Assembly: GCA_034670405.1 (NCBI GenBank)
Contig: JAXDDX010000045.1
Coordinates: 1,111,001-1,175,000 of the forward strand
Source: Hoplostethus atlanticus
Lineage: Eukaryota > Chordata > Actinopteri > Trachichthyiformes > Trachichthyidae
Direction of reading: 5' to 3'
DNA length: 64,000 bases
Shown: positions 54,501 to 57,500 of the stretch, in pieces
How positions within the stretch are numbered: the first letter of the stretch is position 1
Layout: the number at the start of each line of letters is the position of its first letter
Notes under the pieces: model-generated
The model's input: only the letters and a program-made list of their open reading frames with translations
Database searches by the model: none
What the model was told of the DNA's origin: nothing
Translations under genes and position numbers: made by a program

Positions 54501-57500
54501 AGGAGTTTTGTTAGTGAGACTGAATTAGGAGAATTGGTGTGTCTGCAGGTCTCTGGAGCTGGAGCAGTCTCTGAGACGGAAGGCTGAACTGGAATCAGCT
54601 AAATGCAGGTTGCAACTGCAGGTCATGACTAATGAGTGTGGAAAACTACGAGAACAGCTACAGGTACTGACATGATAAAGAGCTTCACACAAAGGAAAAA
54701 AAAGAAATAGTAAAAGATATAAAAAGAAGATAACATTTGGACCGTGCATTCAAAAGAAAAACAGTCTACAAAAAGTGTCCTGTCGGAAATGACTGAACAT
54801 CTCCATGTGAAGAGTTTTATTCCAGACTGGAGCCTCTAGCGGTTAGAGGCTGATCAACTTCAGGTGGTGATAAAGTGTTTTGGAATCAAACTTGATATAT
54901 TTTTGACGTATTTTCCTGCCGTCCTGTTTCGGTAGGAGCTGAAGAAGCTGATGGCCCAGACAGGCCGCAACCCATCCTCCCGGGCGACCTCCCTCCTCTC
55001 AGGGTTATCCCAGAGGCCGGATGGCTCCAAGGCGGCCCAGTACAGCTTCTCCAAGGCGGTGGTGGTTTCCCAGGCTGGAGGCTGCAGGGTTTTATCCTAC
55101 TGCCACCCGCTCAGCTGCCTGCTGGCGTCACAGCCCTCCCCCCACTCCACCCTGCTGCCGGGTGAGACTGCTGCTCTGTTAGCTCGCTCTCCCTCTCTCT
55201 TGTTGGCTTGTTTTCCATCCTTGTTACTTTCTTCGTTTCTTACCTTCTTGGTTTCTTCCTTGTTACTTACGTTCTTCTGTTCTTGGTTTTTTTCTTGCTT
55301 GTGTGACAAATGTAAAAGTCATCCTGCTTGCAGGGAAGAAGCGAGTCCAGATTGTGTCCAGGCATGTAGATCTAATTATGATCAGTTTATTAATTGGTGA
55401 ACATTTAAATGTGATCTCTAGCTGATCAATGACGTGATGCGTTATAAAGTGTGTGTTGTCTTCATCATAAAAACAACAGAAGTTCGTTTCCTCATTTGCA
55501 GATGAGATGATGAAAGTAGTTCACTGCTAAAATGTGAACCTTCAAAATGAGTTAGATTTTCCTTTTTATTAATTAGTTACTGATCAATAAAGATCAGTGT
55601 GATCGTGTCTTGAAGACTGTGATGACTTAGCAGATAGCAGATCACAGGGATCGGTCCTGGGTGATCTGGTGATCCTGGTCATTCTTTCAGCCATAACAAG
55701 GTGACGACATGAAGACATCAGAAATCATAAATTAAAATCAAAAGCAGGTGTGGACTAGTTTAGTAATACTGCAATCACAAATTATTTCTTATTTCTTTTT
55801 GCATTAATACATACACAATACAGTGATTCTATTTCTCCACCATATGATTTTATTTCTATTTCTTCACCATATGATTCTGCTGAAAGACAATAAAGATGCT
55901 CCAGCAACTCGACCATTAAAAATCAGTGGCTGTTTGGAAGCCTCATTTTCTCTTCTCTCTCTCTCTCTGTCCGTCCGTCCGTCCGTCCGTCTGTCTGTCA
56001 GGTTGTGGGGTGAAGAAGGTGAGTGTGGTGAACATGAAGGCTTGTCAGTACGTTCCCATCCATTTGAAACAGATCCGAGGTCTGTCCTTCAACAGACAGG
56101 ATGACACTCTGCTGCTATCTGCTGCCCTGGACAACACGGTGAAACTGACCAGGTACACACACACACACACACACACACACACACACACACACACACACAC
56201 ACACACACACACACACACACCCATCTAATCCTGTACTGGACTCTAGTCTGTATTTTCTTTTATTAGTTTACAATAAATTCAGACTTGTTTATTGAACTTC
56301 ATGTCTTAGACTGTTAGATTATTAATACACATTTGGTCTCAGATGTTTTCTGATCTTTATAGTATTCTTTTATTTATACTTGGAACCTTTTCATGAATGG
56401 AAATGAATGCCGACCATATTCTGATGTTCAGGTTTACAGTTTTATCTCACTTGCAAAATGGGTCTTATATTCCTTTCTAAGTTGTTAGAAAGTGACCCTT
56501 GACCTCTGACCCTTGACCTATTACTTGTAATGTTGGGGATGTAGGAGCTGACTCTACTGTTGACCTCAGTGGAGTCTCTGGATAACGTGTGTGTGTGTGT
56601 GTGTGTGTGTGTGTGTGTGTGTGTGTGTGTGTGTGTGTGTGTGTGTGTGTGTGTGTGTGTGTGTGTGTGTGTGTGTGTGTGTGTCAGTCTCCTGACCAAC
56701 ACGGTGGTTCAGGTCTACAACACTGGTAAGCCAGTGTGGAGCTGCTGCTGGTGTCAGGACAACAGTAACTACATGTACGCTGGTCTGAGCAACGGGTCGG
56801 TGCTGGTCTACGACACCAGAGACACCAGCACACACATCCAGGAGCTGCAGCCGCTACGCTCCAGGTACACACACATATCCAGGAGCTGCAGCCGCCATGC
56901 TCCAAGTTACTAAGGAGATCATTCCGCCACGATGTCAACACAGCGTTACCGGAAGCCATAACGTGTCCAACCTTCACCGTTGCAGGTGTCCGGTGGCGTC
57001 TCTGTGCTACGTTCCCCGGGCGGCGTCCAGCTCCTTCCCCTGTGGCGGGCTGATAGCCGGCTCTCTGGAGGGGGGGTGTTTCTGGGAGCAGATTGACGGG
57101 ACCAGCTACAGGCCCCATGTCCTGCCGCTGGAGGCCGCCGGCTGCACCGACATCCAGGTGGAGACCGAGAGCCGACACTGCCTGGTCACCTACCGGCCCG
57201 GTAAGACCACTAACCCTGACCGGTGCCATCCACTGCACCGGCCCGTCTACCGGCCCGCCTGAAGATTGAGTTGTAATCTAGTTGTAAAATGGTTAAAGTA
57301 GTAATATAGCAGACTCATAGTCAGTTGGCAGGTATAGGTTCAGTGTGTTGCTGAGGGCACATGGCTGTTATGGAGGTTGAACCTGTGTCATTTTGGATAC
57401 AGGACAGTCTCTCGGTCATCCTGTCAATCATCTCTGCTCTAACAAAAACAGTACAACCCAAAAGGATGTAGAGAAAAGAAAAGAGTAAATATACTAGAGA

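Follow-up and report, generated by a model that had tools for sequence, protein, structure and literature searches.

When the two ends of an intron carry long and mutually complementary dinucleotide repeats, does their pairing in the transcript help the intron to be spliced, or do the repeats sit there for reasons of their own? The question is raised by an intron of the RFWD3 gene of Hoplostethus atlanticus, located within a 64,000-nucleotide (nt) stretch of contig JAXDDX010000045.1 (assembly GCA_034670405.1, positions 1,111,001 to 1,175,000 of the forward strand), hereafter called the window and numbered from its first letter. The window carries the 3′ half of RFWD3 on the + strand, and in the 535-nt GT-AG intron located at 56153-56687 a pure (AC)33 run follows the donor, a pure (GT)49 run precedes the acceptor, and the two tracts are complementary to each other. 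That a duplex of the AC and GU runs, as predicted by folding models, helps this intron to splice is a reading to which we give about half of our confidence. A literature search found no paper on the RFWD3 intron locus itself. Scans for orthologues gave no match among phages and no confirmed one in collections of viral and genome contigs, but as none of these contains fish, the negative result carries no weight.

Both flanking exons are recognizable from their products. The upstream coding exon (56001-56152, +, with the first base approximate to within 1-2 nt) ends in CAG, and its translation, ending DNTVKLT, aligns to human RFWD3 (6cvz), as does the downstream coding exon (56688-56864, +). The joined translation matches the WD40 chain of 6cvz over 181/181 query residues (E = 7.6e-80) with no gap at the junction, and this protein homology indicates that RFWD3 is probably spliced at the 56153 and 56687 sites. 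The donor site, CAG/GTACAC (56150-56158, exon and intron separated by the slash), agrees with CAGGTAAGT at six of nine positions and lacks a G at +5. Among 22 introns of the window with readable junctions that we modelled, this one included, 14/22 donors have that G, and CAG/GTACAC is found in 3/22. The GT itself occupies 56153-56154, and the (AC)33 run (56155-56220, +) opens at intron base 3. A preliminary description of the locus had placed the run two bases after the GT; the run is indeed at the donor, but it starts directly 3′ of the GT, and the two bases count from the exon edge. A segment of 366 nt (56221-56586, +) separates the AC run from the (GT)49 run (56587-56684, +), after which only the acceptor CAG (56685-56687, +) remains before the exon begins at 56688, so that the GT run ends 3 bases short of the exon, as had been described. 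The last 17 nt ahead of the CAG are 53% pyrimidine, nine of the 17 being U that strictly alternates with G, and hence the intron has no ordinary polypyrimidine tract, its place being taken by the repeat; here too the initial account is borne out. Of all AC runs found in the window this intron holds the longest, and the same is true of the GT runs.

Folding in silico strongly sets this intron apart. Its minimum free energy is -225.4 kcal/mol, against -151.95 kcal/mol (standard deviation 6.55) for 100 dinucleotide shuffles, none of which folds as low (0/100; z = -11.2), and the z-score rather understates the weight of the arrangement because dinucleotide shuffles retain many AC and GT pairs. At -0.421 kcal/mol per nt it is the lowest of the 22 modelled introns, the other 21 ranging from -0.120 to -0.352, and its total is ∼1.8 times that of modelled introns of like length (534 nt, -126.3; 549 nt, -126.4; 516 nt, -124.5 kcal/mol). 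When the intron is folded together with 60 nt of exon on each side, 65.97 of 66 possible AC-GU pairs are expected in the ensemble, which agrees with the stem of up to about 66 bp and the loop of about 370 nt proposed at the outset. The AC run forms the predicted 5′ arm and the GU run the predicted 3′ arm, in several registers since the GU run exceeds its partner by 16 repeats. Deleting either arm in silico removes nearly all of the gain (-90.5 kcal/mol without the AC run, -87.1 kcal/mol without the GU run); in the model the AC-GU duplex contributes ∼-135 kcal/mol, and the 366-nt loop by itself folds at ∼-86 kcal/mol. The intron's own ends pair at -144.3 kcal/mol, whereas the best foreign 3′ end reaches -72.7 kcal/mol. 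Self-folding of the GU run by wobble pairs was considered as a competitor and rejected at 0.0 kcal/mol, in software that does not model pUG folds.

In the mechanism that we favor, the donor would be transcribed first and bound by U1 before the GU run exists. The GU run would emerge ∼430-530 nt later and zip onto the AC run, forming a stem of up to 66 bp, which would keep the acceptor beside the U1-bound donor and so pair both sites across the intron. Such pairing could offset the weak donor and the missing polypyrimidine tract, and the stem would then be opened, at least partly, since the branch point lies beyond its far end. The tracts would not have reached the intron ends because of pairing; each appears to be separately preferred there in this genome, and in 56153-56687 both may have happened to co-occur and grown long enough to zip.

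AC and GT runs at neighboring intron ends

Whether pairing explains where such runs sit was examined in a census of the 22 introns, 11 from RFWD3 and 11 from an ankyrin-repeat gene (ankyrin repeats identified as Pfam Ank matches) that we take to be ANKRD27. In the ankyrin gene the census covers the introns from 7442 to 14039 except for two in the 11855-12495 interval, and no gene of the window other than these two contributes introns. Two junctions are open to small shifts: the donor of 52755-53341 is possibly at 52761, and the acceptor at 13185 may instead be shifted by 3 nt. AC runs of at least 6 nt occur within the first 30 nt of 7/22 introns and within the last 40 nt of 0/22, and GT runs of at least 6 nt occur within the last 40 nt of seven of the 22 and within the first 30 nt past the donor GT of 0/22 (2x2 p = 0.00058). 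The donor at 54175 is itself GTGTGTG and falls outside the latter count. No TC, GA or AT repeats are seen at intron starts (0/22), and TC repeats are found at the ends of 4/22. Expressed as density, AC runs number 13.0 per kb at intron starts versus 0.7 in interiors, and GT runs 10.8 per kb at ends versus 1.0. The same bias extends to short motifs in introns that have no long runs, with 22 occurrences of ACAC/CACA at starts versus 6.8, and 28 of GTGT/TGTG at ends versus 8.4 (0/2000 shuffles in each case).

Longer runs behave likewise. Within the modelled introns, 5/5 GT runs of at least 12 nt are located within 16 nt of the acceptor and 4/5 AC runs of at least 12 nt within 9 nt of the donor; chance placement is rejected, as 0/200000 random placements reached either figure. 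The whole window contains 15 AC or GT runs of at least 12 nt (6 GT and 9 AC). All six GT runs are near an acceptor, although the junction of the sixth (31371, in a TMED-like gene) was read from frame and paralogue only. The AC runs are more dispersed, with 4/9 at donors, 1/9 (9149) located 42 nt from a donor, and the remaining 4/9 at 47.7-49.5 kb in a duplicated stretch outside the gene models. The window-wide p figures, 9e-11 and 3e-6, assume 80 introns, which is a guess.

In the census donors strongly favor AC and acceptors GT, and this bias needs no pairing. Only one intron of the 22, 56153-56687, has both an AC-run donor and a GT-run acceptor, against 2.2 expected (P(<=1) = 0.24, in two genes of one window), and 6/7 GT-run acceptors and 6/7 AC-run donors lack a partner, which means that such tracts can be kept without pairing. 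The remaining 21 introns have ends that are less complementary to each other than permuted ends (19848/20000 permutations as low or lower). For one of these, 10926-11201, its own 3′ end is in fact the best partner among the 22 (-53.0 versus -47.4), and this intron contains no AC or GT runs. The suggestion in the preliminary description that pairing is the reason for the placement of the runs is thus unsupported outside of the RFWD3 intron.

The clearest partnerless acceptor belongs to the ankyrin-repeat gene intron at 9989-10324 (+), in which (TG)17.5 at 10287-10321 directly precedes CAG. Its donor, GTG/GTGAGC, has no AC run, the sole AC stretch in the intron is 6 nt long, and a consensus-like branch site, ACTGACTAAC, is located upstream of the TG run. 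The initial account had named as a test case a GT run that related species keep without an AC run and splice equally well; judged from its sequence, this acceptor provides the arrangement of runs in question within the same genome. It weakens the link from pairing to placement and leaves room for a bridge in 56153-56687. The converse case is seen at 13668-13864 (+), where the donor CAG/GT is followed by (AC)12 and the acceptor has no GT run. Around the ankyrin-gene exon 8985-9106 (region 8951-9161) the order is reversed, a GT run standing before the exon and AC runs after it, and there pairing would loop out the exon rather than an intron.

Given these counts, the strongest competitor to the duplex is that the two runs work independently as intronic splicing enhancers of the fish type, through bound proteins (hnRNP L, CELF or relatives of TDP-43, for example), with the UG tract substituting for the polypyrimidine tract and the stem being a by-product without a role. 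We regard this as a serious possibility, although one that carries clearly less than half of the weight. The end-specific runs, the excess of short motifs in introns without long runs, the single intron with both ends marked, and the partnerless (TG)n-CAG acceptor of 9989-10324 are all consistent with it, and PMC13174678 connects AC repeats with HNRNPL and GT repeats with TARDBP. It accounts less well for run length, as the tracts measure 66 nt (AC) and 98 nt (GT) here and the longest one-ended runs only 24 nt and 35 nt, respectively. Such lengths suggest that the paired arrangement is special, albeit in a single case that was noticed after the fact: if lengths were random, the two extremes would meet in one of the 22 introns with a chance of ∼1 in 22, itself a post hoc figure. 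In addition, at least three of the five other acceptors with GT runs of at least 12 nt retain pyrimidines beside the AG or before the run.

Splice site access and rival explanations

Besides the partnerless tracts, several properties of the folded intron weigh against a helpful duplex. In the naked fold, the donor (-3 to +6) is paired with a probability of 0.86 at 37 C and 0.90 at 15 C, the acceptor CAG with ∼0.93, and the GGATAAC stretch that precedes the GU run with 0.70. Freeing the donor costs 12.7 kcal/mol, whereas the U1 duplex returns -7.4 kcal/mol in the same energy model (seven other donors tried gave -5.3 to -9.3 kcal/mol), so that in a competition on an equal footing the stem would prevail over U1. 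Opening the acceptor CAG costs 5.2 kcal/mol. On these modelled energies the stem could as well hinder splicing, and proteins with affinity for AC and UG repeats could prevent the runs from meeting. Binding of U1 during transcription, ahead of synthesis of the GU run, would avoid the competition with the stem, and we infer that this is the route by which the donor is recognized if the duplex is to help.

The final objection is one of geometry. The last A before the acceptor CAG is at 56585, position -102, within GGATAAC (56580-56586, +), which is the best placed branch point candidate on sequence grounds. No AG lies between 56585 and the acceptor, and the previous AG is 111 nt upstream of the acceptor AG. 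Since (GU)49 contains no adenosine, the exon must be separated from any A branch point by at least 102 nt, and once the runs are zipped the branch point is located beyond the distal end of a helix of as many as 66 bp. By this reasoning the zipped form joins donor to acceptor and not donor to branch point, and the stem must therefore open, at least partly, before the first chemical step. The zipped form can serve the recognition and pairing of the splice sites. The proposal that the fold brings the splice sites side by side consequently holds for the 5′ and 3′ sites as such, but is incomplete, as the branch point lies beyond the helix and the donor is covered.

A variant joins single action to the duplex in two steps. 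End tracts would have been kept singly as splicing signals, and their co-occurrence would have let both outgrow the length tolerated alone, after which the polypyrimidine tract would be replaced, and a branch point more than 100 nt from the exon bridged, by the duplex or by pUG folding of the GU arm. We consider this history rather unlikely. Were it true, the sequence of events in transcription would matter, with U1 having to bind ahead of synthesis of the GU run, splicing would vary with polymerase speed and tract length, and the route would explain how a class of microsatellite becomes part of the splicing code.

Also rather unlikely is that the runs are neutral or mildly harmful microsatellites grown from short splice-site seeds, with ordinary splicing proceeding through the distant branch point or with partial retention or skipping. 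ACAC and GTGT seeds are common at other intron ends, the CAG/GTACAC donor recurs as noted above, and the pure, uninterrupted runs suggest recent expansion; moreover, PMC1431707 describes human genes in which a distant branch point goes with an extended AG-free zone. Neutral growth alone does not explain why all five of the longer GT runs are near acceptors and four of five AC runs near donors. Last, (GU)49 might self-fold into up to four left-handed pUG quadruplexes that shorten the path from branch point to acceptor, with the AC run as competitor or switch. In favor of such folds, 49 repeats provide four 12-repeat units, (GU)24 and longer form double pUG folds and human pUGs are enriched near splice sites (PMC12276007), the branch point is no closer than 102 nt to the exon, and in fission yeast distant acceptors are aided by structure that forms downstream of the branch point and upstream of the 3′ splice site (PMC9508853). 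We nonetheless hold this reading highly improbable, as PMC12276007 gives an in vitro half-life of at least 13 min for pUG folding, slow next to splicing, and inhibition of longer pUGs by Mg2+, and as the AC run is transcribed first and its modelled duplex with GU is strong.

As regards the duplex between the AC and GU runs, the perfect arms, the missing polypyrimidine tract, the weak donor and the distant branch point make the RFWD3 intron an unusually clean test object for structure-dependent splicing. Its neighbors supply natural controls in the same genome, namely UG-run acceptors and AC-run donors without partners, and such one-ended controls separate the idea that repeats sit at intron ends because they pair from the idea that each is its own signal. 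The constraint on the branch point, in turn, is one that any bridge model must accommodate. These one-ended controls and the branch point constraint are what is new beyond the preliminary description.

Other features of the window

Several further repeats and duplications were seen in and around RFWD3. The acceptor of the preceding RFWD3 intron (55940-56001) has CT and GTCC/GTCT repeats before its CAG. The next intron, 56865-56985, likewise opens CAG/GTACACACAC, and over its first ∼40 nt it closely repeats the last part of the preceding exon, 56830-56864 (ACACACATCCAGGAGCTGCAGCCG...), which constitutes a small tandem duplication across the donor. A 20-mer, TGACCTCTGACCCTTGACCT, occurs in two RFWD3 introns, at 54008 and 56500. 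Outside of the gene models, a direct duplication (47386-48800 and 48959-50372) of at least 1.4 kb and 99.8% identity carries two AC runs per copy.

Of the neighboring genes, an MLKL-like gene is located before RFWD3 (39-63 kb region), and what is presumably a GLG1-like start follows it at ∼62.1 kb, where no Pfam match was obtained. Two p24/TMED-like genes are arranged in tandem at ∼27.9-29.9 kb and 30.7-33.1 kb; the acceptor that carries a CTGT array (28263-28513) in one copy carries a TG run (31371-31399) in the other. The best PDB E-value for the 31-kb gene was 0.52, as expected by chance, and the p24-family match (E 4e-4), which falls under the Pfam cut-off, is in its tandem copy.

Comparison with known systems

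The nearest precedent for runs acting singly is the work of Yeo et al. (2004, PNAS 101:15700), who are reported to have predicted AC and GT repeats as fish intronic splicing enhancers. What the window shares with those enhancers is that AC is enriched past the donor and GT ahead of the acceptor independently of each other, one-ended introns included, and the orientation seen in the census, AC at starts and GT at ends and not the reverse (7/22 and 7/22 versus 0/22 and 0/22), is that of the fish enhancers. They differ in being short and free of any claim of pairing, whereas the RFWD3 runs are long and complementary. A UG run just before an acceptor is also a feature of CFTR intron 8, with its (TG)m(T)n acceptor, where TDP-43 is involved and the UG run promotes skipping. 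Unlike the RFWD3 intron, CFTR has a T tract 3′ of the UG run and no AC partner at the donor.

In humans, AG exclusion zones mark exons whose branch points are distant (PMC1431707), and the RFWD3 intron resembles such cases in its 111-nt AG-free zone, with no A that could serve as branch point in the last 101 nt. The verified human cases have a polypyrimidine tract at the start of the zone, whereas the RFWD3 zone is GU repeat from end to end. A neighboring RFWD3 intron, 57929-58855, has a longer AG-free zone of 248 nt, but it is pyrimidine-rich. With respect to pUG folds, the minimum of 12 GU repeats given in PMC12276007 is exceeded by (GT)49, which has room for four folds of that size.

The closest match is to the (AC)m-(GU)n class reported by Lin et al. 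(2016, Genome Research 26:12-23), introns in which complementary AC and GU repeats occupy opposite ends, energies are up to two-fold lower, and which are present in fish and lamprey (as related in PMC9024468, PMC9198270, PMC9508853, PMC6883713 and PMC7404189). The zebrafish members are reported to splice without U2AF2 (PMC9024468, PMC9198270, PMC9508853, PMC7404189), and the link to such published paired-repeat introns that had been drawn for RFWD3 at the outset is well founded. As in that class, AC is at the donor and GU at the acceptor on the sense strand, the two are complementary over the length of the shorter run, the fold energy is markedly lower (∼1.8-fold), and an ordinary polypyrimidine tract is lacking. 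The example of cep97 intron 5, as described in PMC9024468, is ∼171 nt long with an imperfect hairpin and a masked branch site, whereas the RFWD3 intron has a predicted stem that is perfect for up to 66 bp, a loop of 366 nt and a branch point at least 102 nt out. Judged by its sequence features, the intron at 56153-56687 fits the known (AC)m-(GU)n kind, of which it would be a new and long example.
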